The notes under the pieces were generated by a model. The model searched no databases, was not told the DNA's origin, and was given only the letters and a program-made list of their open reading frames with translations. Below are positions 1,040-34,746 of a stretch of 64,000 bases of DNA, one piece after another. How positions within the stretch are numbered: the stretch's first letter is position 1; each line of letters starts with the position of its first letter. The DNA lies in the IMG/VR virus record IMGVR_UViG_3300035180_002250, positions 1-64,000 of that record. One strand, written 5' to 3'. The stretch is from a virus. The translations under genes and the position numbers were made by a program.

Positions 1040-1139
1040 TTGGATTCTCCACTTAAAAGTACCCTTTATTCAAAATTAGTAAAAAATATACTGGAACATT
1101 ATATATTGTAAATATAATTAGTTTAAATTAATAAACCTA

Positions 1140-1787: not shown

Positions 1788-1823
1788 CTTGATTCTCCAT
1801 TTAAACTAATCAAATATTAATTT

Positions 1824-2465: not shown

Positions 2466-2524
2466 ATTTGTGCACCATCCTCATGAAATTACGTAACTAT
2501 CATATCTACTCTGTGTGATAGCAT

Positions 2525-3184: not shown

Positions 3185-3241
3185 TTATTCACCATCCTCA
3201 CGAAATTACGTAACTATCATCTCTACTCTGTGTAATAGCAT

Positions 3242-3874
3242 CTAATCAGTTAACGTAGCCCCTGCGCCAGCAAATTGATTATTTTTATTGAAAATCTTTT
3301 TTTTGTTAGAACCTAGTGCACCTTTACCCAAACCATATAGGATTTTCGCTATTTTATATGTCATATACAATGGCAATGCTTGGTACATGCCGTGACCAAG
3401 TGCGTTTAATTTTGGATTTTTCAAGATAGAATATACTTCTGCTAGATCCTTTAAGTGTGAATCATTAACTTCTTGAAGAGTTTCAGAATTTTTAAAATGA
3501 TCATTCATTGAATCAACGTCCCTGTGTATCCTTGCATAAGGTTTGTTTGATAATTTATTTGCAATAAAATAGTTAAGTTTTCCCATTCGTGTGTTATCAT
3601 TTTTTAATTTATCATAACTATCATTAAGCGTTTTATATGCGTCAGTTAGTGTACCCCATGTTATTGAACGTTCACCTGGAGCTTGGTTAAATATGCCAGG
3701 GTATAGTTCTTTATATGCATCAAAATGTTTCTTTGATTTTATTAAATCACCTGCAACAGTTGTTGCAACTGCACCAGTACCCTGTGCAATCTCTTTAAGA
3801 GTAGAAAATTTCTTTTCTTTTTTGGGCTCGTCTTGGTACCCTGCAAGTACAACCATGGCTGATTTAGTTATCAT
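3242..3874 (-). CDS. Tandem paralogue 5 of 6, MITK-leader family
   Basis: The 210-residue product starts MITKSAMVVLAGYQDEPKKE, which resembles paralogue 6, while its C-terminal 45 residues match paralogue 4. This mosaic pattern is what recombination within a tandem array would produce. The central block MGKLNYFIANKLSNKP and YSILKNPKLNALGHGM are present in diverged form. Function is unknown. Confidence 0.8.
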   Translation of the reverse strand: MITKSAMVVLAGYQDEPKKEKKFSTLKEIAQGTGAVATTVAGDLIKSKKHFDAYKELYPGIFNQAPGERSITWGTLTDAYKTLNDSYDKLKNDNTRMGKLNYFIANKLSNKPYARIHRDVDSMNDHFKNSETLQEVNDSHLKDLAEVYSILKNPKLNALGHGMYQALPLYMTYKIAKILYGLGKGALGSNKKKIFNKNNQFAGAGATLTD

Positions 3875-3972
3875 TATAGACTCCGTTAAATTATGCAGTT
3901 TAACTTTTTTTTTAAAAAATTAATTTTACTTTATGGACATCAAACTTCAATATTTAGCACACAAGTATTCCA

Positions 3973-4572
3973 TTAGTTTGATCTTATTTTGTTATCAAAA
4001 CCAAATTTCTTCTTTCCCAAGCCATACAATATTTTAGCGATCTTGTATGTCATGTACCACGGTAATGCTTTCGTCATCCCATATCCCAATGCATTTAATT
4101 TTGGATTTTTTATAATAGAATATATCTCAGAGGAATCCTTTAGATACGACGGAGCCATAGATTTAAAATATTCAGACTTACCCGAATCCGACTTAATATT
4201 ATTATATGTATCTAAACTACTTTTTGCCCTTTTAATTGGATTTTTTAGTAATTGGTTTGCAATAAAATAATTAAGCTTCCCAATTCTTGTGTTGTCATTT
4301 TTAAGTTGCTTAAACTTATTAAAAATATTTCCATGCGATTTCATAATTGTATCAAAATTTATTGAACGTGCACCTGTATCTTTATCAACTACCCCAGGGT
4401 ACAGTTCGTTATATGCATCACGAAGTTTTTTTGATCTTATTGAAATCCCAGCAGCAGTTGTTGCAGCTGCACCAAGACCAGGTGCAATCTCTCTAAGAGT
4501 AGAAAATTTCTTTTCTTTTTTGGGCTCGTCTGGGTACCCTGCTAGTACAACCATGGCTAATTTAGTTATCAT
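3973..4572 (-). CDS. Tandem paralogue 6 of 6, MITK-leader family
   Basis: The chosen start is the ATG at 4572, giving MITKLAMVVLAGYPDEPKKE, because a TTGGAG ribosome site sits just upstream. An in-frame TTG at 4584 would add four residues (MESR) that no sibling has. The product is about 199 residues with IGKLNYFIANQLLKNP and YSIIKNPKLNALGYGMTKA. It is the first gene of the array in transcription order. Function is unknown. Confidence 0.8.
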   Translation of the reverse strand: MITKLAMVVLAGYPDEPKKEKKFSTLREIAPGLGAAATTAAGISIRSKKLRDAYNELYPGVVDKDTGARSINFDTIMKSHGNIFNKFKQLKNDNTRIGKLNYFIANQLLKNPIKRAKSSLDTYNNIKSDSGKSEYFKSMAPSYLKDSSEIYSIIKNPKLNALGYGMTKALPWYMTYKIAKILYGLGKKKFGFDNKIRSN

Positions 4573-4608
4573 TCTGGACTCCAACCTAAATTATTTAATT
4601 TAAATTTC

Positions 4609-13390: not shown

Positions 13391-13460
13391 CGTAGTCCCA
13401 CATTGTAAAACATAGTCCTATCTTATAAAACATAGCCTCACCTTCTAAAACATACTCCCA
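13391..13460. repeat. Degenerate ~20-bp tandem repeat (AAAACATAGTCC-type)
   Basis: Three to four degenerate units ending in TAAAACATA(G/C) followed by a C-rich part (TCCCAC, TCCTAT, CCTCAC, CTCCCACA) lie in tandem. It is part of the repeat-rich non-coding block. Confidence 0.6.
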
Positions 13461-13554
13461 CACCTAAAATTAAGTAAATATCAACACCCCAACCAAAGGA
13501 TTACTTAAAAAAGCCCAAACTCCCCCTCAAATTTTCTGACAATCCTGGTATCCA

Positions 13555-13617
13555 CCGGTAGAACGTAGTTAGAACCCGGTAGAACGTAGTTAGAATCCGG
13601 TAGAACCAAGTTCAACG
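13555..13617. repeat. 21-bp tandem repeat CCGGTAGAACGTAGTTAGAA, three units
   Basis: Two near-identical units (13555-13575, 13576-13596) and a third diverged unit (13597-13617) lie in tandem. They contain GTAGAACGTAGTTAGAAC. Non-coding. Confidence 0.85.
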
Positions 13618-13713
13618 TAGCTTTTATTTGTACCCCATGTACCCCAACATCTAAATTTTTTATTAACTTCTCCCTAAAAGGTGCACACTATCAAATATAC
13701 TTCTATTTGCTTG

Positions 13714-13840
13714 GGTTCAAACATAGTACTACTTTGTACTGCACCTGGTTCAAACATAGTACTACTTTGTACTGTACTTGGTTCAAACATATCACTACTT
13801 TGTATCACACTCTGTTCAAACATATCACTACTATATTTCA
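13714..13840. repeat. 33-bp tandem repeat GGTTCAAACATAGTACTACTT, four units
   Basis: Units start at 13714, 13747, 13780 and 13813 with an exact 33-base period. The first two are nearly identical and the last two share CATATCACTACT. The 33-base spacing is close to three helical turns, so bound proteins would align on one DNA face. This array is the closest repeat to the Ubl gene at 14107. Confidence 0.85.
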
Positions 13841-14106: not shown

Positions 14107-14322
14107 ATGGCACTTTGCAAAGTAACGGTAACAAGTATTGATGGTAAAACGTCGCATATGGCACTGGGCGGCGGGGCTACATTGGGTGATCTTATGGATG
14201 ATTTGGGAATTTCTCCGTCTACCACGCAAGCCCTGGTAGATGGTGAGGTAACGGATGCTGATACAGAACTTTGGGATGGGGCTAATGTTTCATTTAAGAC
14301 TCTCAAGTCAACGAATGGATAA
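14107..14322 (+). CDS. Ubiquitin-like beta-grasp protein (ThiS/MoaD/PRTRC-C type)
   Basis: The 71-residue product fits the ThiS/MoaD/ubiquitin-like fold by pattern: VTVTSIDGK (strand-turn), GGGATLGDLMDDLGIS (strand into helix), then ALVDGEVTDADTELWDGANV and SFKTLKSTNG. It ends in a bare Gly (Gly71), where E1 enzymes act on this superfamily. The ending is NG rather than GG; as far as I recall, PRTRC protein C also ends in a single Gly. AGGAG precedes the start. A strong terminator follows it, and E2-like, JAB and E1 genes lie downstream. It is the likely modifier of the cassette. Confidence 0.75.
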   Translation: MALCKVTVTSIDGKTSHMALGGGATLGDLMDDLGISPSTTQALVDGEVTDADTELWDGANVSFKTLKSTNG

Positions 14323-14363
14323 CTTGAGAGTAAAATAAAAATCGGCTATGTGAACGCACAATA

Positions 14364-14406
14364 GGGTAGGACTAAGCCACCACTTAGTTCTACCCTTATT
14401 TTTTTA
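14364..14406 (+). terminator. Rho-independent terminator after the Ubl gene
   Basis: GGGTAGGACTAAG (14364-14376) pairs with CTTAGTTCTACCC (14383-14395), giving a 13-bp stem with one G-U pair and a six-base loop, followed by TTATTTTTTT. It sits between the Ubl gene and the rest of the cassette. Most transcripts would then stop after the small modifier gene, giving it higher expression than the enzymes. Confidence 0.9.
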
Positions 14407-14485
14407 GCAATCTATTAGTATCCAATAGTAAACTGTGCATGCATCACATAAAATGTAAATAAAATATAAAATAAGGAAAACGCTA

Positions 14486-16492
14486 ATGAGTAAAGAAGAA
14501 TATTTGTCTATACAAGAGGTTCTTACACAGATGTCTGGTGTTGAACACCCAATTATCCAGACACAGCAAACACTCCCTAAAGAGGATATTACCTATGTAG
14601 CAAAATTATTATCCAGTGGGGATACAGATAGCATTATGAATTTAATTGATTTTATACATGCTCATCCAAAATATAATGAGAGTGTTGTGGCTGCTGGGAA
14701 CGTAGCATATAACTATTATGATTCAATATATTCTAATAAAGCGACTGAAATTAAGAATGCAAGTTCACTTAAAGACAAAAAATATGTATGGTATATCACC
14801 AATGGTTCTAAGAATTTGATTAATGCATACCAGCCATTTGCAATGGCTTTTATCCCGACAACACTTTATCTAAACAAGTATTTTACCGAGGTTAATACTC
14901 ATGAATATATAATTAAACTTTATCTGCAATCATTTATAAAGATTTTACTTACATCGAAAGTAGTAACACGCACTAATAATGGGTATGAGTTAGCATCCAA
15001 CGGACAAGAGTTTAAAACAGTAATGGATATTCTTATGAGTAATCCATTATCAGCATATTATATTTTTGGTAGGATAACTTATAATAAGAATGAATATATA
15101 CCCTATGGGACAGACTCTATATTCAATCCAATACTGAAAATTATAAATTATGAAGTAACAGGTAGTTCCTCTAGTGCCTCTAGTGATTCTAGTGCCTCAA
15201 CAGAGTTTACGATAGACAAACATATTCACCAAATAAACAAGTATCTATTAACTAAGTATAATACAGTGTTAGATATATTATTTAACACAAATAGTAGTAA
15301 GACTATTAACTTTAGTGAGTTTATAGCAGTGTGGATGCTGTCAAAACCGAATGTAAATTATATAGAACTTTCAAATACAACACTTTTACTAAATTATTTG
15401 TATAAAATGTTGCATGTATTCAGCTCTTATAATTTTACAAATAAGGACCTTACTAATAATTTTGATAGTAATACTAATAATAATACAAGGTTTTTATCTG
15501 ACTATTTACTTAAAATAGAAAAGCTGATTACCCCACTAGAAGCAGATATGTGTATTACAGGACTGTTTTGCCCTGTACCTATACGAAGTGAGGTGTCAAG
15601 CAACTCGACAGTGAGTGTAGGTGTACCTAATGGACAAATTTTCACAGGTGAAATTAAAACCAAGTCAAATAAGTGCTTTGCTGGGATTATACCATTATAC
15701 ACATATTACTTAGTATCTACAGGGATTTATTGTAACAGTCTGTTAGCTAATTGGGTATCGCTGACTAGAAAGAAAACAGAAGAGGAGGTTAATAAACAAG
15801 TTAAAGAGCAGTTTGGTAATTTGTTTATTACAAATATATTTTGTGTTCAAAGTACCAATATAAACCCTATATATAAGGATCAATCAAATGTAAGTGCATT
15901 CGATTCTGGGAAATATGCATTTACATATATTTTTGAGAGATTCAAAGGTCTTCCTGTTCTAATATTAACTTTCATGAACTCGTATAAACCAAGTCTCCCG
16001 ATGTTTCTGGTGCAGACGGAAGATAAACGTATAGCCTTTTGGGTTCCACAGCATAAACAAGTTATTAACTTCATTTTAAACTACTGCAACCACAAGATAA
16101 ATAATTATTCCATATTAAACACTGTTGATGACAATATAGTTAATTTTGTAACTAATCCATCAAAAATTAATTTTGAGATAATGCTTGGGGTAATAACAGA
16201 TACTACAAATATAATTACTGATAATACAGAAATAGCTATAGATAAGATAAATCCAAGTTTGTTAATAAGCATCAACTCAGGAAATTATGTATTACCCTTG
16301 GGTTTCTCCCAGTTGATCGAGGAGAACATCGATGGCAGGAAGTTGTTGGGAATGGAAGTTGAGAAAGAAGTATCCCCAACTGATCTTGGGTGCTTGTTAA
16401 CCTTGAGATTAAACATGGATATGGAAGTTTACTCAAAAAATGGTAAAGTAATTCAAAGTATTATACCAAGTAGATTGGAGACACAACAATGA
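14486..16492 (+). CDS. Unknown 668-residue protein of the Ubl cassette
   Basis: The gene sits between the Ubl and E2-like genes and overlaps the next one by four bases (ATGA), so it is co-translated with the cassette. The product is large, Asn/Tyr-rich and without signal peptide. A Ser-rich linker (about residues 230-243) separates an N-terminal helical half from a C-terminal half containing GVPNGQIFTGEIKTK and VPIRSEV. No catalytic motif was recognised. In PRTRC cassettes a protein of unknown function (protein F) usually occupies this relative position, so it may be its counterpart. That is positional inference only. Confidence 0.7.
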   Translation: MSKEEYLSIQEVLTQMSGVEHPIIQTQQTLPKEDITYVAKLLSSGDTDSIMNLIDFIHAHPKYNESVVAAGNVAYNYYDSIYSNKATEIKNASSLKDKKYVWYITNGSKNLINAYQPFAMAFIPTTLYLNKYFTEVNTHEYIIKLYLQSFIKILLTSKVVTRTNNGYELASNGQEFKTVMDILMSNPLSAYYIFGRITYNKNEYIPYGTDSIFNPILKIINYEVTGSSSSASSDSSASTEFTIDKHIHQINKYLLTKYNTVLDILFNTNSSKTINFSEFIAVWMLSKPNVNYIELSNTTLLLNYLYKMLHVFSSYNFTNKDLTNNFDSNTNNNTRFLSDYLLKIEKLITPLEADMCITGLFCPVPIRSEVSSNSTVSVGVPNGQIFTGEIKTKSNKCFAGIIPLYTYYLVSTGIYCNSLLANWVSLTRKKTEEEVNKQVKEQFGNLFITNIFCVQSTNINPIYKDQSNVSAFDSGKYAFTYIFERFKGLPVLILTFMNSYKPSLPMFLVQTEDKRIAFWVPQHKQVINFILNYCNHKINNYSILNTVDDNIVNFVTNPSKINFEIMLGVITDTTNIITDNTEIAIDKINPSLLISINSGNYVLPLGFSQLIEENIDGRKLLGMEVEKEVSPTDLGCLLTLRLNMDMEVYSKNGKVIQSIIPSRLETQQ

Positions 16493-18261
16493 GTACAATT
16501 AAAATTAATACAATAAATAATACATTCGAGGTTTTAAATAATATTTTCTATCCAGGAATTTCAGAAAATAATATTAAAGATTCCTTACAGGAGGCGTATA
16601 ATAAATATCTGCAATTACTTACAGAGTACCAGAATTCTATGGTGAACAAGAATACATGCTTTTCAAAAGTTTTAGTGTCAAATATGTTAAGCAACTTTGG
16701 ATATCCTGCAACATTTTCAAATTCTAATGGAGCTTTGCATATTCTGTTAGACAAATATCCAATCAGATTAAACTCAGTAAAGAATATGCCAAACATCTCG
16801 GAAAAAAATAAAAACAACAACAAACTTCAATATTATTGGATCACACCAAAGGCATTTACTATGGAGTTGTTGATGGATAGCACACAGATTATTCTAAATA
16901 ATCGTACTGGTGCTAATGAAGGCACAACAACCACTGTAGCATCTACACTGGGTACACTGCTTAACGATGGTGTACCTTGTAATATACTGTTGTTCAAAAA
17001 CCCTTTGTTACACAACCATGTGTCAACAGAGCAAAACAGTATAAAGTATAATATATCGAAGATCAACAACACAGCAAATATATGTGTTGGTACACATAAG
17101 TTTCTTAATGGGTATGGTTCAATTTTTACTACTGCGACTAATGCTACTAATGATACTAAATGGATCGTATCCAAGAGTACACCAAATGAAATCGTAACTA
17201 ATTTTTTCTATGATTTCTTTGATTGGATACAAACAGTTACCTTCGATGATTGTTATAGGTACAATTATTTTAATCAAATTACCTTATATAATCGAGAAAC
17301 AACAAATAATCTTATAAGTGAAATGGTACCAACTATATACGATGGAAACCCTTTAATATATGAAGGACGCTGTTTCCACGGACGAGGTTACACTGAAAGA
17401 TATTTTACTTTGTGTAATGATCTTATCACTACAATAACAGGGCTCCACCGAGTATTAAAAGAGTCCTACAGAGAAGTAAACGATGTAGTAAATGGGTATA
17501 TCAAACAAACAGATACAAACACATACACAGACACAAACACAGCCACAGATACAGACACATCTATTAACGATGAAGATAAAGAAACATTTTTAATTAAAAG
17601 TAGTAGTAGTGGCGAGGCAACAGGTGAATCTGTAGAAAGTGGACGTAAAAAAATTTATGAGATAGTAGATTCTGTAATAAAAAGAATCTATAAAACTCAA
17701 GCACAATTTGAAGACCAATATGCAAAGGATATCATATATAATGTAACCGAAATAACTGAAAAAATTAATACGCTGTTTTACCATCAGCAATGCTTATTTG
17801 AAGATAAATATAAGTTTGCTCATGCAGGTTGTGTAGCTGCATCAGAAAACATGAAGGAAGTGTCACGAGTTTTATCTGATATAGGGATAATTAATAAGTA
17901 TAATACCAGTTTTAGCCATATGGAGAGGGAATGTAAGCTGTTTAGTACTTGGGATATTTTACATCAATTAGCCTCTTGGTTATGCTTGGTATACCTGAAT
18001 TTGATGGCGGAACTTCTGTATTTTAATGCGTATCGGTGGAGTTTTGATATTATTGGTGTACGGTATGATACGGAAGAAGTCGTATATAAATCGGGAAGTA
18101 ATTTTGCAGTACCAACTGGTAACCCATTGTTCACATTTATTAATTATACTAGGCACCACACAGAATCGTATAATGGTAGTTATTTAAATCCATATACGTT
18201 AAATGATATTAAATATATTCTGGATATACATGAGTTTTTCTCAAAGTATTTTGTAATTTAA
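16489..18261 (+). CDS. Candidate E2-like conjugating protein of the Ubl cassette
   Basis: The 590-residue product starts inside the stop of the preceding gene (ATGA). Residues about 175-215 (FKNPLLHNHV, then NNTANICVGTHKF) resemble the core of prokaryotic E2 family D / PRTRC protein B. There an Asn-containing strand is followed by IC-x-G with the catalytic Cys, here Cys199. A second Cys, Cys295 in NPLIYEGRCFHG, also resembles an E2 active-site context. A Thr/Asp repeat linker (TDTNTYTDTNTATDTDTS) follows at about residue 345. The C-terminal 200 residues are unassigned. The E2 call is based on motif and order, not on overall similarity. Confidence 0.5.
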   Translation: MSTIKINTINNTFEVLNNIFYPGISENNIKDSLQEAYNKYLQLLTEYQNSMVNKNTCFSKVLVSNMLSNFGYPATFSNSNGALHILLDKYPIRLNSVKNMPNISEKNKNNNKLQYYWITPKAFTMELLMDSTQIILNNRTGANEGTTTTVASTLGTLLNDGVPCNILLFKNPLLHNHVSTEQNSIKYNISKINNTANICVGTHKFLNGYGSIFTTATNATNDTKWIVSKSTPNEIVTNFFYDFFDWIQTVTFDDCYRYNYFNQITLYNRETTNNLISEMVPTIYDGNPLIYEGRCFHGRGYTERYFTLCNDLITTITGLHRVLKESYREVNDVVNGYIKQTDTNTYTDTNTATDTDTSINDEDKETFLIKSSSSGEATGESVESGRKKIYEIVDSVIKRIYKTQAQFEDQYAKDIIYNVTEITEKINTLFYHQQCLFEDKYKFAHAGCVAASENMKEVSRVLSDIGIINKYNTSFSHMERECKLFSTWDILHQLASWLCLVYLNLMAELLYFNAYRWSFDIIGVRYDTEEVVYKSGSNFAVPTGNPLFTFINYTRHHTESYNGSYLNPYTLNDIKYILDIHEFFSKYFVI

Positions 18262-18299
18262 TATAACTTATTCAGAACATGAATAAAAGGAGCAACCCA

Positions 18300-19979
18300 A
18301 TGCGAAAAGAAAAAGGAAAAGAAAGAGGAAAAGAAGTTACTAAGTGTGGTTCATTGGATAATGTTTTTATACCTACTCTACTAAAACCAAAAGAGCAAGT
18401 TAAAGAGGCTGAGGGGGCAGAAGTGAAAGAGAAAGAGGAAGAAAAAAAGACCTATAAATTTTTCGAACCATTTATGAGAATGCCGAAGTGGGAGGTAGAT
18501 AAAGCGTTGTTAGATAATGGGTATGTGCTGTTCCACACGAAAAAGCAAGAAGAAGTAGCAGCAACAGCAACAGGCGTACCTCTGAATTATATTATTCCGA
18601 GTGTCTATATTGATATCCGTATTTATAATCAGGTTAAATATTTTTTCGATATTTTAGCAAAGGACAACAAGGAAGGGTATGTGTTTCTCCTTAGTAAAAA
18701 GTTGAATAGCCTGGACCCAAATTATTTGGTATATGGCTGGTTCTCCTGCGCTCAAAGGGTGTCCAGCAGCGATGTAGAAGCTGATATGGAGGACGCAAGG
18801 AGGTACTTCAAGTATCTTAAAGAGTATGAGGTAGATGGTAAGAAGTATCACGATTTCCAGGAAGGTTTCCATAAGCGAATCGTGCCGACACATTCTCACC
18901 ACACCATGAAACTAAATAACTGGAGTGGTGTAGATATTAAACAGCAGACATCTAGGTCTGACATGGGATTCATGGATGATTACAAACTATTTGGGTTATA
19001 CACAACGACATATGGGTTCAAGTTTTCTTTGATAAATTATTTTCCTGTGTATTTCCGTGTGGAAGATTGTAATGTTGGGTATTACTTCAGCAGGGATGCA
19101 TTGGATTGGGAAATAACTAAGGATGACAAAAAGAAAATTGAAAGTATGATCAAAGAGTTAGTAGAGGTACCAAAGTATACGTATAATGTAAATAATAAAG
19201 ATTTGATAGCATCGTTTGGTACGCTGTTTAACAATAATACCAACACTACCACCACTACCCACATTAATAACAACAAAGACACTACAAACAATAATAGGTG
19301 GAACTATGACAGTATATTGGATTACGATGAACATGATTATGAGCATAGCCATTTATGGTATGATACTACAACGACCAATCAAACAAAGGCAAGAAATGAT
19401 GAGGTGGCACTAATCAGTCCTGAGGATGCACCAATAGCATTGGAGAGGTTCACAAAACTTTTATTTGATTATATGGAAATCCCCCCTAAGTATAGCCAGG
19501 AGCATGGGAAAATCAAAAATAGTTTAATAAAGAGTATTAAAGTGAACCCTAAGTATTTTGATAAGTTGTTAAGCGTAGTATTTTGGTTCATGTCAGATTA
19601 CGAAGAACATCTTATTGACGCAGTGAGTATGTATCCATCTAAGAATACAGGTGAATTATATTATGAGATAAATAACAAGGTACTGGAAGATACATTCAGT
19701 ACTGGGGTAAAAACGTTCTGCCAGGTTCTACAATTTAAGGGGGCGATGAACCCGTTAGAAAGTGGTTTGGAAGATGATGATATTGAGGATTTTATAGCGT
19801 GTAAACCGATTCTCCCTTTCCTAATCGCAGTGTTGTTCAAGAAGGATTACGTAGAAAGTTATTTTGGGGATGTATTCAAAAAGTTCAGCAATTATTTGAA
19901 ATCCAAAAAAGAGTCAGAGCAAAAATACACAGTAAAGGATTTTACACTGTTTCTTGAGGCGGTTTCTGACTATATGTGA
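18300..19979 (+). CDS. JAB/JAMM-family isopeptidase of the Ubl cassette (PRTRC-A-like)
   Basis: The start is ATG 18300, seven bases after AAAGGAG; an in-frame ATG at 18279 lacks such a site. The product is about 559 residues. After a Lys/Glu-rich N-terminus, a JAB/MPN domain is visible: Glu125 in EGYVFLL, FSCAQRVSSSDVEAD, then His198-Ser-His200-His-Thr-Met and Ser209-x2-Asp212. These are the zinc and catalytic residues of the JAMM motif. The HxH-to-Asp spacing is one residue longer than the usual ten. The C-terminal 280 residues are unassigned and include a His/Asn/Thr-rich low-complexity stretch. The expected role is processing of the Ubl precursor or removal of Ubl from targets. Confidence 0.7.
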   Translation: MRKEKGKERGKEVTKCGSLDNVFIPTLLKPKEQVKEAEGAEVKEKEEEKKTYKFFEPFMRMPKWEVDKALLDNGYVLFHTKKQEEVAATATGVPLNYIIPSVYIDIRIYNQVKYFFDILAKDNKEGYVFLLSKKLNSLDPNYLVYGWFSCAQRVSSSDVEADMEDARRYFKYLKEYEVDGKKYHDFQEGFHKRIVPTHSHHTMKLNNWSGVDIKQQTSRSDMGFMDDYKLFGLYTTTYGFKFSLINYFPVYFRVEDCNVGYYFSRDALDWEITKDDKKKIESMIKELVEVPKYTYNVNNKDLIASFGTLFNNNTNTTTTTHINNNKDTTNNNRWNYDSILDYDEHDYEHSHLWYDTTTTNQTKARNDEVALISPEDAPIALERFTKLLFDYMEIPPKYSQEHGKIKNSLIKSIKVNPKYFDKLLSVVFWFMSDYEEHLIDAVSMYPSKNTGELYYEINNKVLEDTFSTGVKTFCQVLQFKGAMNPLESGLEDDDIEDFIACKPILPFLIAVLFKKDYVESYFGDVFKKFSNYLKSKKESEQKYTVKDFTLFLEAVSDYM

Positions 19980-19989
19980 CCATGCAGGA

Positions 19990-20156
19990 AACATCACAAG
20001 TAACATCACAAGTAACACCGCAGTAAACATCGCATACAACATCGCAGAAAACGGCGCTTAACTCAGTCCCAACCAAGTTCCAACTCAGTCCCAACTCAGT
20101 TCCAACTCAGTCCCAACTCAGTCCCAACTAAGTCTTACCCAAATTAAGCGCCGTTT
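19990..20156 (+). repeat. Tandem repeats inside a 13-bp inverted repeat between JAB and E1 genes
   Basis: Five 12-base units of AACATCACAAGT type (19990-20049) are followed by seven 11-base units of AACTCAGTCCC type (about 20060-20136). The second array is the loop of a perfect 13-bp stem, AAACGGCGCTTAA (20049-20061) with TTAAGCGCCGTTT (20144-20156). No T-run follows, so it is not a classical terminator. It could be an RNA structure controlling E1 expression or a protein-binding array. Confidence 0.85.
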
Positions 20157-20192
20157 CACAAAAAAATTAAAAAAGTAAAGGAGCAAAACACT

Positions 20193-22490
20193 ATGTTTGA
20201 CGAAGAATTAAGTACTATAGATACTAAAGAAGAACCAACGATTAACCAACAACAAAAATATAATGAAGTCAAAGAACTGCTGGACACTGAATCTAATATT
20301 AGGTTCAGAGACCTGATGCCACGAAATCTGAAGAAGGCAAAGATCGCTGTAATCGGATGTGGCGCTATAGGTTCTTGGACTGTACAGCAGTTGGTGAAAA
20401 TTGGGTGTAGTAATATCTCAATATTTGATGATGATACCGTTGATATCCAAAATATTGGACCACAGGGTTACGGTTGGGTACACCTTGGTAAACCGAAAGT
20501 AGAGGCCCTGAAAGAGATGGCTTTCGAGGATAAGGGTATCCATCTGACAGCGTTCAACGAGCGTATAACGAATTATATGCATATGATTACACTGTTGAAC
20601 GAAGTACCGGATATTATAATTTCAGCGGTAGATAACATGGAATTTCGGAATGAGTTTATTGGGAAGAATCTACTGGCAAATTTTATTAATGAGAATTCCA
20701 ATGTAACTAACCCCGTGCTGGAGTTGTATAATGGTAGAGATAATTATAATAAGTATATGTTAGACCCATGTGAAATAAGTCACACGGAAGATATGGTTAA
20801 TTTCCTGAAGATGTTTCCAAAGCTGGTATTCGATGCACGGATGACATTGGGGACGTGGAATTTATTTATACTACCTATTAAACATATACTATCGGTTCCA
20901 ACATATAGTATTAATATACGATTAGTTGAGGCACTTGAAAAAACCGTAGTAAATTATCTGAATGATAATTTTTTCAAGACAGAAGATGCACTACAGGAAC
21001 CATGTACTGCCAGAGCAATCAATTTTACTGGGGCTGCGCTAGCCTCCAAGATTTTATCAGCAATCTTTTATTTCTATACAAATAATGAGTTATTTACTTC
21101 TGATTTACTATATCAGAAAAATACAACTGGGAATAGCAGTTCTCAACCTTTGGGTAATGTTCACCTGAATAAAAAGATGTACGACAAGTATATAGGATTT
21201 TATGAGAATGATAGAAATATTATCCCTCACACGTTCACTCACGTATTTAATACTCTGGAGTTCAATGATTTGAATCTCAGAGCAACTGTATTCAACAAGG
21301 TCCATAAGTTGGTTGAGGATAAAGAATGCATATTACATAATTTCAAACAATTATTGGCATTTCTATTATTAAACCCAACACTGTTATCCAGCTACAGTAA
21401 AAAATATTATCAGGGCGATGCTCAGTTAAAGATGTTGGCGCATATAATATTAAATACAACGGAGTTTGATGAATTAATATTAGCAAAGGATTATCTTAAA
21501 TTTCATGGAACAATCTCCGATTCAAACTTTATGAATGCACTAAATATACTTGATGGACTATTAACTGAGAATACCTTTATGAATAAAAGTTTAATGATGG
21601 GTACATCAGGCTATTTGGATAAACGATTACATACGATGAGAAAATTAAACGATCTGAACAGATCATTATTTAATAATCACCGTAGTATACTCCAAGCAAC
21701 ATATATAAATACTAATTATGAAACATACGAGGACATGGCCCCAAGAGTATACACTGTTGAAAATGCAACACCGCTAGCACCAGCGGAAATGTTTAAACAC
21801 GAATGGTACAGCACCAAGAATATGTCGTCTACCTATATTATACAGTTATTACGAAGTATGATTGAACCTTTGGATAGTACAAAGATACACAAGGTATTCA
21901 CACCACTAACTGATTACGCAATGCTGGCGCCGAAATATGTAATAACATGTATTAATAATGAATTTATAAATAACAATTCTACTTATAGAATGGATTGTGA
22001 GCTAATGGGAGCTGCATTCAATAAATTAATGAATATAATGTTAGCTCCATACTCTGAAGAAATTAGAGAGTTTATTTATGATAGAAATGAAGTTGATTTT
22101 TATTCGGAAGATTATCAAACATTAACAAAGTATATTGATAATTACGAAGACGCTATATTAAATATAAAACAACATGTAGTACCAAAGATACCTGTATTTA
22201 TGGAGCAGGATCATATGTACTCATCAATTGGCTATGTTATGGGAATATACTTTTCTTCGTATATGTACAAAGGTGCTGATGAGATTAATTACATTGTGCA
22301 TGAAGCGTCCGTGAGTGTGGTACCTGAGAGTTATATTTTGAGAGCTGGTGTTCTAGATCAAACCAAAGAAGATGGTTGGCTAACATCAGAAGGGTATTGG
22401 GGTAAAATTAATGATTCTACTAGGAGTTACCAACTATTCAATGTATTGAATGTGAATTTACCCTATTTTGAAGAATGGATGCAGCAATGA
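20193..22490 (+). CDS. E1-like / ThiF-family adenylating enzyme with long C-terminal extension
   Basis: The N-terminal 300 residues are a ThiF/MoeB/E1 adenylation domain. Visible are the Rossmann nucleotide loop GCGAIG (residues 55-60), DDDTVDIQNIGPQGYGWVHL with HLGKPKVEAL, ISAVDNMEFR, and Cys271 in EPCTARAINFTGAA, the expected thioester Cys region. Activation of the Ubl C-terminus with ATP is the expected reaction. Residues about 310-765 have no recognised domain, so the protein is roughly three times the usual ThiF length. AAAGGAG precedes the ATG. It ends the cassette, with RNase H coupled behind it. Confidence 0.85.
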   Translation: MFDEELSTIDTKEEPTINQQQKYNEVKELLDTESNIRFRDLMPRNLKKAKIAVIGCGAIGSWTVQQLVKIGCSNISIFDDDTVDIQNIGPQGYGWVHLGKPKVEALKEMAFEDKGIHLTAFNERITNYMHMITLLNEVPDIIISAVDNMEFRNEFIGKNLLANFINENSNVTNPVLELYNGRDNYNKYMLDPCEISHTEDMVNFLKMFPKLVFDARMTLGTWNLFILPIKHILSVPTYSINIRLVEALEKTVVNYLNDNFFKTEDALQEPCTARAINFTGAALASKILSAIFYFYTNNELFTSDLLYQKNTTGNSSSQPLGNVHLNKKMYDKYIGFYENDRNIIPHTFTHVFNTLEFNDLNLRATVFNKVHKLVEDKECILHNFKQLLAFLLLNPTLLSSYSKKYYQGDAQLKMLAHIILNTTEFDELILAKDYLKFHGTISDSNFMNALNILDGLLTENTFMNKSLMMGTSGYLDKRLHTMRKLNDLNRSLFNNHRSILQATYINTNYETYEDMAPRVYTVENATPLAPAEMFKHEWYSTKNMSSTYIIQLLRSMIEPLDSTKIHKVFTPLTDYAMLAPKYVITCINNEFINNNSTYRMDCELMGAAFNKLMNIMLAPYSEEIREFIYDRNEVDFYSEDYQTLTKYIDNYEDAILNIKQHVVPKIPVFMEQDHMYSSIGYVMGIYFSSYMYKGADEINYIVHEASVSVVPESYILRAGVLDQTKEDGWLTSEGYWGKINDSTRSYQLFNVLNVNLPYFEEWMQQ

Positions 22491-23038
22491 CAATGCATAT
22501 AGCACTCTGTGATGGATTTTGTAAAAACAACGGGAGCCCTATGGCTTCGACTGGGGGATCTTATATAATTTATGGGATCACCGATGAAGAAGCCAGGGAA
22601 TTTGATATAAATAAACCAGAAACTTTACTTAACATACTAAACAAAGACACACATCTTATAAAAGATAGCAATTTGTTGTTCACGTTTTTACCAAGTAAGG
22701 CTGTAACGAACAATGAGGCTGAGGCGTGGTCGCTATTTATGTTATTAACTGCGATCAGGAAACTGATTGAAACAGGGGAAATTAAGTTAAACCAGGTAAA
22801 CCAGGTAGATACTAAAGATACTGATAGGATTGTGATCCTAATGGATTCACTCCTTATAGTTAACCAGGTAAAACATCTGTACAAAGTGAATAACCAGAGA
22901 CTTAAGGAGGCCCATCGGGATATTGAAAAACTGTTGAAGCAAATAGGAAGATTGGTGCATCCAAAAAAGATTAATGAAGTACTGGGACTAATGCACATAC
23001 CCGGAGATATTATGAAGAAAACAGCTATTAACCATTGA
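22487..23038 (+). CDS. Ribonuclease H (RNase HI-like)
   Basis: The start is taken at ATG 22487, overlapping the E1 stop (ATGA); an earlier in-frame ATG at 22475 lies inside the E1 gene. The 183-residue product carries the RNase HI acidic residues: Asp in LCDGFCKNNG near the start, Glu in TNNEAEAW near residue 80, Asp in LMDSLLIVNQV near residue 122, and a last Asp in HIPGDIMKK. It would degrade RNA in RNA-DNA hybrids during phage replication. The coupling to the E1 gene may only reflect operon order. Confidence 0.75.
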   Translation: MTMHIALCDGFCKNNGSPMASTGGSYIIYGITDEEAREFDINKPETLLNILNKDTHLIKDSNLLFTFLPSKAVTNNEAEAWSLFMLLTAIRKLIETGEIKLNQVNQVDTKDTDRIVILMDSLLIVNQVKHLYKVNNQRLKEAHRDIEKLLKQIGRLVHPKKINEVLGLMHIPGDIMKKTAINH

Positions 23039-24418: not shown

Positions 24419-24435
24419 GACAGAAGAAGTATTTG

Positions 24436-24471
24436 AGCCCGTACCAGGATTGGCCTGGTATGGGCTTTTTT
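24436..24471 (+). terminator. Rho-independent terminator after dut
   Basis: AGCCCGTACCAGG (24436-24448) pairs with CCTGGTATGGGCT (24454-24466) through one G-U pair, leaving a five-base loop and TTTTTT behind. It closes the rightward operon ending in dut. It also lies just downstream of the TTTGTTATAAG element and could attenuate transcription from it. Confidence 0.85.
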
Positions 24472-24771: not shown

Positions 24772-24917
24772 TCTCTCTTGCTATCTATTTTTTATAGCAT
24801 TAAAATATTTTTTAACTATTGACAAAATATTTTTTTAAAGATAGTGCTAAACATCAATTATGGTTTTAACGATATTGTTTATTATCATTGACACTTCAAA
24901 GAACAGGAATATCCTAT

Positions 24918-25577
24918 ATGTATGCACGACTAATCATTGCACATAAAAAAGAAGAAGAAGGAGAAGAGAATAAAATCCCCAAATTGCCTGAAGGTGTTTC
25001 TCCGGAAGATATTGTGAAAGAAGCCAATATAGACCACACAATGTTGAAGGCATTATTGTACTCTGGGTATATCTCCAGCTTAATTTACGAAGGGTTAAAT
25101 ATAGGTGACACTTATAGAGGTGCTGAACAACTAGTTCAACTGCTGTACCCGCTTATTTTTAACTCAGAAACAAAGCAGTTGAACCAGTATGAATCTGCTT
25201 TTTTAGCGATACTTGATAAGGAAAAAAAGATTCTCAAAATTGAAAAAGTTTCAACAGGGTCAAGAAACACTTGTTTAATCGATAATGGTGAAATTATTGC
25301 CTCTGTTATTGCTAATGGGGGGTCTGGTTTTGTGATAGCACATAATCATCCTGGGGGTGAAGAGGTGTATGCTGACGCCTTCCCAGATCAAGATACACAT
25401 GCATATTCTATTTTATGCATTGCTGCACAATTGGCCGGTATAACGATGCATGACGGAATAATATTTGGCAAATCAACAGTGGTATCCCTAATAGAACACA
25501 GACCTGATTTTTTCAACAATGTTCAAAAGCTTATTAACCAAATTAAAAGTGGCCTGATCGAATTAGGAAAAATGTAA
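24918..25577 (+). CDS. RadC-like JAB-domain protein
   Basis: The start is ATG 24918 after AGGAAT; a TTG at 24888 is possible but less likely. The product is about 219 residues. The C-terminal half is a RadC/JAB domain: GFVIAHNHPGG (His142, His144), then PDQDTHAYS (Asp159) and GITMHDGIIFG. The HxH-to-Asp spacing is about four residues longer than in RadC. RadC proteins are common in phages and mobile elements; their activity is not settled. As a second JAB protein 5 kb from the Ubl cassette it could be a desumoylase-like accessory, but it resembles RadC more. Confidence 0.75.
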   Translation: MYARLIIAHKKEEEGEENKIPKLPEGVSPEDIVKEANIDHTMLKALLYSGYISSLIYEGLNIGDTYRGAEQLVQLLYPLIFNSETKQLNQYESAFLAILDKEKKILKIEKVSTGSRNTCLIDNGEIIASVIANGGSGFVIAHNHPGGEEVYADAFPDQDTHAYSILCIAAQLAGITMHDGIIFGKSTVVSLIEHRPDFFNNVQKLINQIKSGLIELGKM

Positions 25578-28653: not shown

Positions 28654-31191
28654 ATGGAAGTATTGAAAAAAAATACATGTAGTAGTGAAAACATAAGTGA
28701 AACCGTATATCAAGAACTGTTGAACAGTGTAGTAACAAAAAAATATACAGCAAACGAAAATGAAAAAACGTATGACGATGTAATAGCAAGAATCACAAGA
28801 TACTTTTCAGATGGAACAATTAAAAAGAATTATACTCCACTAGTATCTGTGGAGAATAATTTGATTAAGTATTTACAAGATAAAACAATCATACCAGCTG
28901 GATCTATTCTACGTGGATTTAATGATCCAAATTATACAGGTAGTTTTTCCAACTGTTATTACATTCCAATTGAGGAAGACTCAATTGAAGGTATTTTTGA
29001 AACGACAAAACGTCTTGCTAGGATTTTCTCTAAAAGAGGTGGAGTTGGGATCGACCTAACTATCCTAAGACCAAAGAATACCAAGGTTAATAACAGCGCC
29101 AAGTATAGTACTGGTGCAGTTTCTTTTATGCCGCTGTTCTCAGAAGTGACAGATACCATTGGCCAGCAGGGACGGCGTGGAGCACTGTTGATGTCAATGG
29201 ATATAAGGCATCCTGATATTGAGGACTTTATAATTTCTAAGACATCGAAAGCACCAACTGTATTCGCAAAGGATGAAATAACCGGGAGAATTAAAGACAT
29301 CTCGCATGCAAATATATCGGTGAAGATCACGGATGATTTTATGAGGGCTGTATATAATAATGAAGATTGGAACTTAATATTTCCTGATATTGAATCTGTA
29401 GGAACCGAAGTTTATACGAAAGAGTGGAACGGAGCATATAAGGATTGGGAGGAAAAGGGGTACCCAGTAAAAATATATAAAACAGTAAAAGCCCGAGAGT
29501 TATATGATCTTATATGTAGGGCTGTATGGGAATGTGGTGACCCAGGATTGTTATTTGTTGATGCAGCTCAGAAATGGACACCAGTTGCAGATATTCCCCA
29601 GTTAATACCTAAGGGAACTAACCCATGCGGTGAGCAGTGGATGCCTGATTGGGGAAATTGTCTTTTAGTAGCAATCAATTTACCGAATTTTGTAATAAAT
29701 CCGTATAAAAATAAGGAACCCTCCGATAAAGAAAGTGTATTTGATTTTTCAAGAATTAAAGATGTAATAGAAGCGGCTGTGTATTTTGCTAATGTTGTTT
29801 CACAAGAAAACAGTAATAGACATCCGTACCAGCAGCAACGTGATATGGATGAATATAGTAGGAGAATCGGTATTGAAGTAACCGGGCTCGCAGATGTATT
29901 TGCCATGCTTGGTATTGCGTACGGAACGGAAGCATCTATAAAATTCACGGAAGAGCTATTCCAATTTAAAGCTTTATGTGAAATATATGCTTCTTGGAAG
30001 TTTACTAAACAATTCGGTGTATGCAAAGTTTTTAAGGATTTGGAGAATCGTAAGAAATTTGTTGATAGCAATTATATTGACACTATTACGCATACAGCAG
30101 ATGCGGTAGAGTATAAGTATATTGTTAATATACCTGAATTTATAATACATAAACATTCTTCCGATATAAAGAAAAAGATAATGAAAGATGGGTTATGTAA
30201 CTCAGCGTTTAACACAATTGGACCTTGCGGGAGTATCTCAATTGTGGCGGATAATTGCACTTCTGGTATCGAGCCACTATTTGCGTACAAATATAAGCGG
30301 AAAGTTACGCTTGGTGGTAAAGTAAAAGAATATAGTGATGAGCATTACCTGGCGAAGAAACATGGAGGGTCAGAAGAGAATTACAGATATTCAGAAGCGC
30401 ATATGATTCATTATGAACATAGATTAAGAGTGCAGGCGGCAGCACAGTTTTTTACCGATGCAAGTATTTCAAGCACGATCAATCTACGCAACAGTGCTAC
30501 TGTTGAAGATATTAATAATCTTTATAGGAAAGCACATATATGCGGGTTAAAAGGTATAACCGTATTTCGAGATGGGTGCAAGGTTGGTATCTTGGAAAAA
30601 GTTACACCTGTTGATGAACACCAACAAGATACTAATGAACACCCACAAGATACTAATGAACATACCATATTATACAAACGTTCTTTATTGGACGTTGAAG
30701 ATGCAGAGAGACATAAAGTTATATGGAAGAAAGGCAAAGTTTATGTAATAGTGTCACTAGATGATACAAGTAACCCGATTGAAATATTTGCAAAACTGCC
30801 GAGACAAGCAGGCTTTACTAAAGATGGAGTATTTGAGCAGGATAAATATAATGAAAATACTGCCAACTGGGATTGTATAAACAGGCTTATTTCCATTATG
30901 CTGAGGTATAATATCCCGTTATCCGATATTATCGATCAACTTGATAAATCAAGTTGCAGTCTTGTTGATGCCCCTGGAGTTATTAAAAGGGTTCTATTAA
31001 ATTATCTTGACGATGGAACTATCATCAATCAAAATGATGCAAATGGTGGTGGATCAGTAGGTACCGATGAGCTTCAACTAACAAATGGGTTTCACAGAAC
31101 ACCATGTCCAAACTGTGGTAACCAGGACTTGTATACTAGAGAAGGAGGTTGCTATTCGTGTAAAGGGTGTGGGTATTCTAAGTGTGACTGA
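28654..31191 (+). CDS. nrdJ: Adenosylcobalamin-dependent (class II) ribonucleotide reductase
   Basis: The 845-residue product has class II reductase features: GSFSNCYYI with Cys101, SKRGGVGIDLTILRP, GRRGALLMSMDIRHPDI, NPCGEQ near residue 323 (active-site Cys and Glu), and GPCGSISIVADNCTSGIEP near residue 525. A C-terminal zinc-type module CPNCGNQDLY-x-CYSCKGCGYSKC follows. It reduces ribonucleotides to deoxyribonucleotides using vitamin B12 and needs no separate small subunit. A low-complexity segment DEHQQDTNEHPQDTNEH near residue 652 separates the catalytic body from the C-terminal part. Confidence 0.9.
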   Translation: MEVLKKNTCSSENISETVYQELLNSVVTKKYTANENEKTYDDVIARITRYFSDGTIKKNYTPLVSVENNLIKYLQDKTIIPAGSILRGFNDPNYTGSFSNCYYIPIEEDSIEGIFETTKRLARIFSKRGGVGIDLTILRPKNTKVNNSAKYSTGAVSFMPLFSEVTDTIGQQGRRGALLMSMDIRHPDIEDFIISKTSKAPTVFAKDEITGRIKDISHANISVKITDDFMRAVYNNEDWNLIFPDIESVGTEVYTKEWNGAYKDWEEKGYPVKIYKTVKARELYDLICRAVWECGDPGLLFVDAAQKWTPVADIPQLIPKGTNPCGEQWMPDWGNCLLVAINLPNFVINPYKNKEPSDKESVFDFSRIKDVIEAAVYFANVVSQENSNRHPYQQQRDMDEYSRRIGIEVTGLADVFAMLGIAYGTEASIKFTEELFQFKALCEIYASWKFTKQFGVCKVFKDLENRKKFVDSNYIDTITHTADAVEYKYIVNIPEFIIHKHSSDIKKKIMKDGLCNSAFNTIGPCGSISIVADNCTSGIEPLFAYKYKRKVTLGGKVKEYSDEHYLAKKHGGSEENYRYSEAHMIHYEHRLRVQAAAQFFTDASISSTINLRNSATVEDINNLYRKAHICGLKGITVFRDGCKVGILEKVTPVDEHQQDTNEHPQDTNEHTILYKRSLLDVEDAERHKVIWKKGKVYVIVSLDDTSNPIEIFAKLPRQAGFTKDGVFEQDKYNENTANWDCINRLISIMLRYNIPLSDIIDQLDKSSCSLVDAPGVIKRVLLNYLDDGTIINQNDANGGGSVGTDELQLTNGFHRTPCPNCGNQDLYTREGGCYSCKGCGYSKCD

Positions 31192-32608: not shown

Positions 32609-32806
32609 ATGAAAAACAAAGCATTCATGCTAAAAAAATTATCTGCGAAGTATAATATACCCATTAGTATAGTATATGAGACATATAATTGTTTAATAGA
32701 GTACGAGGAGTTACCTGAAGTAATCAACGAAATTAAAATGCTAGCACGTACTGTAAATGGAAGGGGGCATGAATGGCAACAACAAACAAAAGAAATAAAG
32801 ATATGA
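32609..32806 (+). CDS. Unknown 65-residue protein overlapping gyrB start
   Basis: The product is a short, Lys-rich helical protein starting MKNKAFMLKKLSAKYNIPIS. Its last 34 bases overlap the start of gyrB in another frame, and its ribosome site is poor. It may be a real coupled gene or a chance frame. Confidence 0.45.
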   Translation: MKNKAFMLKKLSAKYNIPISIVYETYNCLIEYEELPEVINEIKMLARTVNGRGHEWQQQTKEIKI

Positions 32807-34746
32807 ATACTCCCACATACACATCAGATAATATACAGGTACTTGAGGGCCTTGAAGCTGTTAGACAAAGGCCATCCATGTATATTGGTAACGTAGGTGA
32901 GGGAGGGTTGCACCATCTGGTGTATGAAGTTGTAGATAACAGCATGGATGAAGCACTTGCAGGGTACTGTGATAAAGTAGTTATTACAATATATAAAGAT
33001 AATTCTATTTCTGTATTGGATAATGGTAGAGGTATTCCTACAGAGATACACAAGGAAACCGGGTTATCCGCAATAGAAGTCGTTTTGACTAAACTACATG
33101 CAGGCGGAAAGTTTAATAACGACAGCTATAAAACGAGCGGTGGGTTACATGGTGTGGGTATCAGTGTAGTTAATGCTCTTTCTAAATACACTAAAGTATG
33201 TGTATTTAAAGGTAAGGAGCAATATTCCCAGGAATATGAAAAAGGATTACCAATCAGTAGGGTTGTTAAAGCCCTACGTAATAAAAAAGAATTCAATGAG
33301 ATAAAGACAGGTACTTATGTTTACTTCAAACCGGATGACACGATTTTTGATACGACTGTATATAATGTGGAAACTCTTGCAGACAGGTTTAAAGAGCTAT
33401 CATTATTAAATCCTAAAGTACACATTACTTTGAGAGATGAAAGAACAGGGGTAGAAAAGGAGTTTTACTCTGATAACGGCTTGATCGATTTCTTTACGGA
33501 TTATAATAAATCCTTAAAGAGTGATGAAAAGCCTATTATAGATGTGATCAGAGCTACAACTGAGCTAGATGAAGTATATATTGATTTTACCATGCAATAT
33601 AATACTACCTATAAAAAAGAAGGACATTCATTTGTAAATAATATCAGGACTATCGAAGGTGGTACACATGTAACTGGATTCAGAAGTGCATTACTGCGGG
33701 TTTTTAAATATTTTGTAGGTGAACTAAAAATGCATCTTAATTTTAACTCAGACGATATACAAGAGGGTTTGGTTTACATTATATCTCTCAGAATGAAAGA
33801 CCCACAGTTTGAAGGACAAACAAAAACCAAACTTGGGAATTCTTACATAAAACCACTGGTAGATAAGGTAGTTTACGATAATCTGCTTGAGTACTTTGAA
33901 TTCCACCCAGAGCAACTAAAGCTGGTGTTCAACAAGATAAAAGTATCAGCAAAGTCCAGAGAAGCAGCATCTAAGGCTAGAGACCTTGCCAGAGCGAAGT
34001 TAAAAGTTATAGAAGTGGATTCTGTTGGTGTGTTACCTGGTAAATTGGCCGATTGCCAGTCAAATGATCCTTCTGAGTGTGAAATATATTTTGTGGAAGG
34101 GGAAAGCGCCGGTGGATCAGCCAAACAAGCAAGGGATAGACGCTTTCAGGCTATTTTACCACTAAGAGGAAAGGTTCTTAATGTTGAGGGCATGAACCTC
34201 CGTCGTGTGCTACAGAATGAGGAAATCAAAAATATAATTACAGCACTGGGTACAGGGATCGGGGAGAACTTTAATCAGAATAAGTTGCGGTATCACAAGA
34301 TAGTTATTATGACGGATGCAGATGTAGATGGAGCCCATATACGGTCATTACTTCTAACATTAATATTCAGGCAGATGCCGGAGTTGATTATGGATGGGTT
34401 TGTTTATATTGCTCAACCACCTTTATACAAGGTAGAGTCTGGAAAATCGCATTGGTATGTAAAAGATGCTCAGGAGCTGCCAGACCTCCTCAGAACGTTA
34501 AAAAAAGATAAAGACCAGGTACGTATTCAACGGTACAAAGGTTTGGGTGAGATGGCCCCTCAGCAGCTTTGGGAGACGACTATGGACCCGGTTAACAGGA
34601 CGATGTTGAAAGTTAAAATTGAAGATGCTATAGGTACAGACCACCTATTTTCAGTTTTAATGGGTGATGATGTGGAACCACGTAGAAACTTTATTTACCA
34701 ACATGCTTTATCTGATGAAGTTAAGTTCGAGGCTTTGGATATTTGA
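32773..34746 (+). CDS. gyrB: DNA gyrase / topoisomerase IV subunit B
   Basis: The 657-residue product is a complete GyrB/ParE-type subunit. The N-terminal GHKL ATPase shows QVLEGLEAVRQRPSMYIG, EVVDNSMDEALAG, VLDNGRGIP and GGLHGVGISVVNALS. The TOPRIM domain shows FVEGESAGGSAKQ, PLRGKVLNVE and MTDADVDGAHI, and the C-terminal block includes QRYKGLGEM. It lacks the insert that lengthens E. coli GyrB. With a GyrA partner (not in this window) it would relax or supercoil DNA during phage replication. AAGGGGG lies before the start. Confidence 0.93.
   Translation: MATTNKRNKDMNTPTYTSDNIQVLEGLEAVRQRPSMYIGNVGEGGLHHLVYEVVDNSMDEALAGYCDKVVITIYKDNSISVLDNGRGIPTEIHKETGLSAIEVVLTKLHAGGKFNNDSYKTSGGLHGVGISVVNALSKYTKVCVFKGKEQYSQEYEKGLPISRVVKALRNKKEFNEIKTGTYVYFKPDDTIFDTTVYNVETLADRFKELSLLNPKVHITLRDERTGVEKEFYSDNGLIDFFTDYNKSLKSDEKPIIDVIRATTELDEVYIDFTMQYNTTYKKEGHSFVNNIRTIEGGTHVTGFRSALLRVFKYFVGELKMHLNFNSDDIQEGLVYIISLRMKDPQFEGQTKTKLGNSYIKPLVDKVVYDNLLEYFEFHPEQLKLVFNKIKVSAKSREAASKARDLARAKLKVIEVDSVGVLPGKLADCQSNDPSECEIYFVEGESAGGSAKQARDRRFQAILPLRGKVLNVEGMNLRRVLQNEEIKNIITALGTGIGENFNQNKLRYHKIVIMTDADVDGAHIRSLLLTLIFRQMPELIMDGFVYIAQPPLYKVESGKSHWYVKDAQELPDLLRTLKKDKDQVRIQRYKGLGEMAPQQLWETTMDPVNRTMLKVKIEDAIGTDHLFSVLMGDDVEPRRNFIYQHALSDEVKFEALDI

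Follow-up and report, generated by a model that had tools for sequence, protein, structure and literature searches.

A predicted ubiquitin-like conjugation cassette in a phage genome and its counterparts in crAss-like and other phages

Bacteria are known to use the conjugation of ubiquitin-like proteins (Ubls) against phages, as in the cyclic oligonucleotide-based anti-phage signalling system (CBASS) and in Bil. The locus described here raises the reverse question: do viruses tag proteins themselves? The stretch of DNA analysed, referred to as the window, consists of positions 1 to 64,000 of IMGVR_UViG_3300035180_002250, a virus record with a full length of 131,684 bases. A sequence-only reading had proposed that five consecutive rightward genes at 14107–22490 encode a Ubl, a large protein, a candidate E2, a JAB peptidase and an E1. 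All five open reading frames (ORFs) are found in that order on the + strand, with a different start for the JAB gene. The virus is a large phage of gut type, and the phage setting is borne out by a gene survey of the whole record, which shows a terminase, tail and baseplate-type genes, a DNA polymerase and a fused RNA polymerase; the nearest named relative by terminase search is Salmonella phage Arash, at 31% identity. This gene order is repeated in a relative of the phage (L024) that is identical to the 64,287-base contig NZ_NFJC01000017 of the Desulfovibrio sp. An276 isolate assembly (IMG/VR 2791354756_000002), hereafter the An276 phage. We propose that the cassette probably encodes a reversible Ubl-conjugation pathway. 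The identities of three of the five products, the Ubl, the E1 and the JAB, are well supported. The cassette is not a chance assembly because its products match SAMP2 and ThiF, its JAMM pattern is rare, and its gene order is repeated in the An276 phage.

The Ubl gene (14107–14322, +) is preceded by an AGGAGA ribosome-binding site and encodes a protein of 71 residues with the C-terminus ...KSTNG, Gly71 being the last residue. The match to Pfam SAMP2 (4.6e-6, 27.4 bits) lies just above the cut-off of 27, and that to ThiS (3.8e-4) lies just below its cut-off. The An276 phage has an orthologue (33% identity, E = 4e-4 to 0.003). Thus, with a profile match above cut-off, a C-terminal Gly and an orthologue, the 14107 product is well supported as a predicted ubiquitin-like (beta-grasp) modifier, in line with the earlier description of a beta-grasp protein ending in Gly. 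Since Gly71 is already C-terminal, no maturation would be needed if Gly71 is the conjugated residue, which would cast the JAB as a deconjugase and not as an enzyme that processes the Ubl.

The E1 gene (20193–22490, +) encodes a protein of 765 residues. Residues 44–153 match Pfam ThiF (PF00899) at 5.6e-22, with 78.5 bits against a cut-off of 28.1, and the GxGxxG, D, N, K and D positions of the ThiF/E1 superfamily are in place. The residues concerned are GCGAIG at 55–60 (G55, G57, G60), D79, D81, N87, Q91, K102, D147, R216 and Cys271. Cys271 aligns with a Cys in all 55 other E1s compared, and D147, K102, R216 and others match identical residues in the same 55 of 55. The An276 phage E1 is 33% identical over 303 residues (1e-41). 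The protein continues into a C-terminal extension of about 450 residues. The GCGAIG and Cys271 of the sequence-only reading are both present, and the 20193 product is well supported as a predicted ThiF/E1 adenylating enzyme.

The cassette could instead act in sulfur transfer. In a sulfur-carrier system, a ThiS/MoaD/SAMP2-like Ubl would be made into a thiocarboxylate by the E1, the JAB would release the product as in CysO-Mec, and the sulfur would be destined for nucleotide, tRNA or phage DNA modification. The SAMP2 and ThiS matches of the Ubl, the best NCBIfam match of the E1, which is ThiF, and the position of the cassette beside dUTPase and ribonucleotide reductase genes all fit that scheme. 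However, the profile of the E1 family lies nearest to protein-conjugating E1s in the PDB: its closest solved relatives are UBA5 (the UFM1 E1), then other E1s, MoeB, Cap2 and BubCD. In addition, dozens of phages have, along with the set, a fourth gene whose product carries a conserved H-x-H...C-x-G signature, and the annotated crAss-type cassettes have no adjacent rhodanese or cysteine desulfurase. Sulfur carriage is thus reckoned to be distinctly unlikely.

The JAB gene (18279–19979, +; 566 residues) had been read from an internal ATG at 18300, so that residue numbers counted from there are 7 too low. That is, the identity of the product as a JAMM peptidase stands, but His198, His200 and Asp212 become H205, H207 and D219. 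With E132 and S216, these residues make up the Glu and HxH...SxxD pattern of JAB/JAMM proteins. Among ORFs of at least 100 residues, the JAMM pattern is confined to a single one in the 131,684-bp phage genome, and shuffling the JAB protein reproduces it in 0.065% of cases. E132, H205, H207, S216 and D219 are aligned in 63 of 63 JABs; these had been selected in part by their H, H, S and D positions, but not by the Glu. The window protein has no significant match in the profile libraries, Pfam included; the linkage runs through its An276 orthologue (blastp E = 2e-12, 25% identity), which matches the phage JAB hidden Markov model (HMM) at 6e-18 and Prok-JAB at 9.6e-4. Two points weigh on the other side: the window JAB has no score against the phage JAB HMM directly, and its HxH-to-S spacing is one residue longer. 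On balance, the 18279 product is well supported as a predicted JAB/JAMM metallo-isopeptidase. A second JAB-type metalloprotein, RadC-like, is encoded near the cassette at 24888–25577 (+; 1.1e-16).

Is there an E2 between these genes? The candidate is the 590-residue product of the gene at 16489–18261 (+), which occupies the E2 slot and carries the motif H175-N-H177-V...I-C199-V-G201. The motif parallels HPHV...ICTG in the An276 protein and HPHVRDGRPCLG in a compact phage protein (L110), and arises in 0.2% of shuffles of the 590-residue protein. C295, the E2 Cys of an initial MAFFT placement, was rejected; C199 fits both HxHV...CxG and the An276 motif. The evidence is better for the phage family to which the An276 protein is linked: hhalign matches that protein to the phage E2-like family with P about 1e-5 and a probability of 75–82%. 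When a profile built from eight compact phage E2-likes is compared with every PDB sequence, the 36 highest-ranking matches are ubiquitin-conjugating enzymes, the best with a weak E of 0.07, and the alignment places HPH on HPN and the C on the catalytic Cys. E2 identity is therefore likely for the phage E2-like family, yet unproven.

On the other side are several results, most of them on the window protein itself. This protein has no significant match in the profile libraries and no significant link to the E2 family by BLAST or HMM; it does not head its own proteome in HMM ranking, and no homology is claimed. The HxH[VILT]...CxG motif is found once elsewhere in the window phage. The AlphaFold model of a fragment of the protein was uninformative, with a predicted local distance difference test (pLDDT) score of 41, which makes a fold search with it meaningless. 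The confident AlphaFold model of the L110 E2-like protein (pLDDT 80) gave no significant fold match in the PDB, the E2 UFC1 ranking eighth with E = 1.6. Of the earlier claim of an E2 with Cys199, then, the Cys is found as described, in HNHV...NICVG, and the E2 identity of the 590-residue protein is plausible but unproven, as judged from position and the H-x-H...C-x-G motif.

These results bear on a reduced version of the pathway, in which the genes at 16489 and 14486 evolve fast and have no relation to the pathway, leaving Ubl-JAB-E1 to perform a two-step, E2-free, SAMP-like conjugation. The 16489 product, having no statistical E2 support in the window, leaves room for such a set. On the other hand, the An276 phage has the same slot and motif, and its protein links to the phage E2-likes. 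We regard the E2-free version as unlikely and retain the 590-residue protein as a candidate E2.

The gene between the Ubl and the candidate E2 (14486–16492, +) encodes a 668-residue protein and is joined to the candidate E2 gene by an ATGA overlap. It has no HMM match in the profile libraries and no significant similarity to the An276 gene of the same slot. By position only, it corresponds to the helical protein of Iyer type 6d and PRTRC operons. Downstream, a gene at 22475–23038 (+) overlaps the end of the E1 gene. Its 187-residue product has no Pfam match and is RNase H-like by eye. The An276 phage encodes its orthologue in the corresponding position (26%, 4.8e-10), and the gene is a linked neighbour of the cassette.

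The An276 phage thus follows the window in gene order, from the Ubl through the gene in the 668-residue slot, the E2-like gene, the JAB and the E1 to the neighbour that is RNase H-like. It differs in that its Ubl ends ...SGNSGC and in that its E2-like protein and the product of the 668-residue slot have no significant alignment with those of the window. The core proteins of the two phages are 50% (terminase), 45% (fused RNA polymerase) and 38% (DNA polymerase) identical. In contrast, the E1 and Ubl are at 33% and the JAB at 25%, with similarity undetectable for the other two cassette proteins. It follows that the cassette evolves faster than the core. This fast divergence favours host-facing targets, i.e., takeover or counter-defence, over virion proteins. 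From its kinship to the An276 phage, the window phage is inferred to have a Desulfovibrio-type host. Scanning the clade again with the pair of JAB proteins recovered the An276 contig alone, and a clade-specific DNA pattern for EPCTARAI recovered more short phage E1s and no closer cassette.

Are complete sets of this kind rare in phages, as the sequence-only reading implied? They are common and are found on dozens of phage contigs. The window E1 leads by tblastn to crAss-like phages, where the ThiF gene belongs to a cassette of Ubl-like, E2-like, JAB and ThiF genes between primase and uracil-DNA glycosylase. Existing annotations of the genes read hypothetical protein, metalloprotease domain or thiamine biosynthesis protein, and Pfam recognises Prok-JAB weakly in the cassette proteins. 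Relatives of the E2-like gene are present in 74 phage records, including the cultured Bacteroides phages crAss001, DAC15 and DAC17 and Flavobacterium phages. A scan of IMG/VR with an E1 alignment gave 80 loci. Among 70 non-redundant E1 loci, an ORF with the JAMM motif lies just upstream in 63, and an ORF with HxH...CxG lies before that in 48; in the loci inspected, a Ubl-like ORF is ahead of the E2-like gene. Family-wide alignments were needed for IMG/VR, where single-protein scans with the window E1 and JAB found no match. In 50,697 phage records, tblastn with the 668-residue protein, the candidate E2 and the JAB of the window gave no match. We found no published account of a complete phage-borne Ubl cassette, in a search that excluded bioRxiv and most subscription journals and is therefore weak evidence.

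The crAss-like cassettes (crAss001 Gp79–Gp76, cr85_1, DAC15) share with the window the order of Ubl-like, E2-like, JAB and ThiF genes and, in the E1, the catalytic Cys and other residues. They differ in lacking a counterpart of the 668-residue gene, in an E1 without the 450-residue extension, in a long Ubl extension after KSG, and in belonging to a different phage group. Most Ubls of the phage loci scanned have KSG or GG followed by an extension (median length 135 residues); 5 of 48 end within 5 residues. Because these Ubls extend beyond KSG or GG, the JAB may mature them. In the crAss-like cr106_1 (L022:4696-5899), the Ubl gene is interrupted by an HNH endonuclease ORF directly behind ...KKIKSGKF, the point from which the extension of other Ubls runs on.

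A second feature of these cassettes lies in the gap that separates the Ubl gene from the enzyme genes. In the window, a predicted intrinsic terminator at 14363–14396 (+) has a 14-bp stem and a U tract, with a folding energy of −21.4 kcal/mol (z −6.6). The An276 phage has a terminator in the same position, taking 4725 as the start of its gene in the 668-residue slot. Such a hairpin is present in the Ubl–E2 gap of 39 of 52 phage cassettes, where dinucleotide shuffling gives a mean of about 0.2 per 52. Other co-directional gaps of the same loci have one in 20 of 328 cases (Fisher p 3e-27, a value overstated by the kinship of some loci). The stems differ in sequence between phage groups. Annotated crAss-type loci have the terminator in 4 of 9 cases. 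The E2, JAB and E1 genes, meanwhile, overlap or nearly do so, with median gaps of −65 and −12 nt. Excess of Ubl over the enzymes would be the simplest reading. The terminator appears to be a new observation; the section on these operons in the operon survey PMC1779556 makes no mention of it. In the window, a further intrinsic terminator after the dUTPase gene (24435–24467, +) is the likely end of the cassette-carrying transcript.

Among the closest bacterial systems is operon type 6d of Iyer, Burroughs and Aravind 2006 (PMC1779556), in which a Ubl with a C-terminal Gly is followed by a mostly helical protein, an E2-like protein, a JAB and an E1. All five slots recur in the window, those of the Ubl, JAB and E1 by their own features and those of the E2-like and helical proteins by position only. 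The type 6d operons described there are bacterial, not phage-borne, and their JAB-N Arg/Trp domain and the downstream His of their E2 have no established counterpart in the window.

PRTRC plasmids, with the order ParB-E-C-...-B-A-ThiF, were named in the sequence-only reading. The plasmid order C(Ubl)-F-B(E2)-A(JAB)-ThiF does match the window, F and B by position, and the plasmid Ubl has 68 residues and ends in Gly. Nevertheless, the window proteins are 2–3 times larger than their plasmid counterparts; the PRTRC ThiF model TIGR03736 scores 37.3 bits on the window E1, below its cut-off of 144.75; the PRTRC A, B and C models match none of the window proteins; protein E is missing; and the post-Ubl terminator is absent in the two plasmids checked. 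As had been noted, there is no ParB-type gene: no ParB family protein or ParB-N domain occurs in the 131,684-bp record. PRTRC membership of the window cassette fails. This bears on a role in replicon maintenance, in which the cassette would modify a phage replication or partition protein, as presumed for PRTRC plasmids. The shared order speaks for such a role, as does the fact that many phages have primase and replication genes next to the cassette; with PRTRC models far below their cut-offs and ParB missing, we hold it to be highly improbable.

Anti-phage systems offer another comparison. BilABCD is a Ubl-E2-deubiquitinase-E1 system and, like the window with its candidate E2, has a Ubl, an E2, a JAMM deubiquitinase and an E1 as separate proteins (PMC11354881). 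Bil is host-borne and has features of its own, i.e., two Ubl domains in BilA, a CEHH motif in BilB and an inactive plus an active adenylation domain in BilD, none of which is seen in the phage-borne cassette. Type II CBASS shares with it E1 adenylation and JAB chemistry through Cap2 and Cap3, and PADLOC E1-E2 models match the window E1 domain. However, the window E1 and E2-like proteins come from separate genes, so that there is no fused E2-E1 (Cap2); the cassette has its own Ubl; and profile-library scans of the five proteins found no CD-NTase, i.e., no cyclase.

Accordingly, one can ask whether the phage carries the cassette for defence, tagging the proteins of its competitors in the manner of Bil or type II CBASS and so shutting out superinfecting phages. 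The kit is the same as that of the bacterial anti-phage Ubl systems, and the cassette is sporadically distributed. Against this, PADLOC matched only its generic E1 and JAB models (the presence of Bil models in its library being unchecked), the E2 and E1 are not fused, and the cassettes are placed among genes for replication or nucleotide metabolism, not in cargo regions. Phage-carried defence is considered very unlikely.

The favoured pathway, reversible conjugation by the phage, would run as follows. The E1 would adenylate Gly71 of the Ubl and then load the Ubl onto Cys271. The 16489 product would take the Ubl on Cys199 and, in E2-like fashion, attach it to target proteins at lysines or other nucleophiles, and the JAB would cleave the tag off again. 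Transcription of the Ubl gene with a terminator behind it would supply the tag in excess, the enzymes being made from read-through, and the 668-residue protein would probably serve as an accessory factor or recruit the targets. Of this scheme, sequence tools establish the genes, the families of the Ubl, E1 and JAB, the catalytic residues, the shared cassette and the terminator-like hairpins; E2 activity, conjugation and its reversal, surplus Ubl and the targets are predictions.

For a wider proposal, the arguments are evenly balanced: many tailed phages, cultured crAss-like phages included, may conjugate Ubls routinely as part of a conserved programme, with a terminator providing abundant tag and scarce enzymes. 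The window would hold a version enlarged to five genes, and the fast evolution of this version would point to targets in the host. If so, viruses would tag proteins themselves, reversing the known bacterial use in CBASS and Bil. The proposal is directly testable, because a form of the cassette is present in the cultured crAss001, DAC15 and Flavobacterium Fpv phages, and a phage contig from the assembly of a Desulfovibrio isolate has the form with five genes. The Ubl-specific terminator would be a simple and checkable design principle.

Several features lie within or around the cassette. The 213-nt gap between the JAB and E1 genes, the sole sizeable gap among the enzyme genes, contains repeats of 11–12 bp at 19984–20134, and tandem repeats of 20, 21 and 33 bp occur upstream of the Ubl gene at 13393–13832. 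Nucleotide genes adjoin the cassette, namely dUTPase and a ribonucleotide reductase gene at 28654–31191; near the latter, the phage encodes a DNA gyrase B (32773–34746, +; 8e-48).

Farther away, six tandem paralogues of about 210 residues starting MITK.AMVVLAG lie at 392–4584 (−), the one tested having no Pfam match. The phage genome has three IS605 OrfB/TnpB-type ORFs, one in the window at 43997–45133 (−), with a Pfam OrfB_IS605 match of 1.5e-23, and two recognised by eye (L004:9302-10423 and L005:16647-17768, both −). The fused RNA polymerase (56430–62453, −) joins Rpb2 (beta) and Rpb1 (beta-prime) in a single chain of 2007 residues (RNA_pol_Rpb2_6, 1.6e-49). It bears intein/LAGLIDADG homing-endonuclease signatures at residues about 1499–1902; the An276 phage version has 1469 residues.

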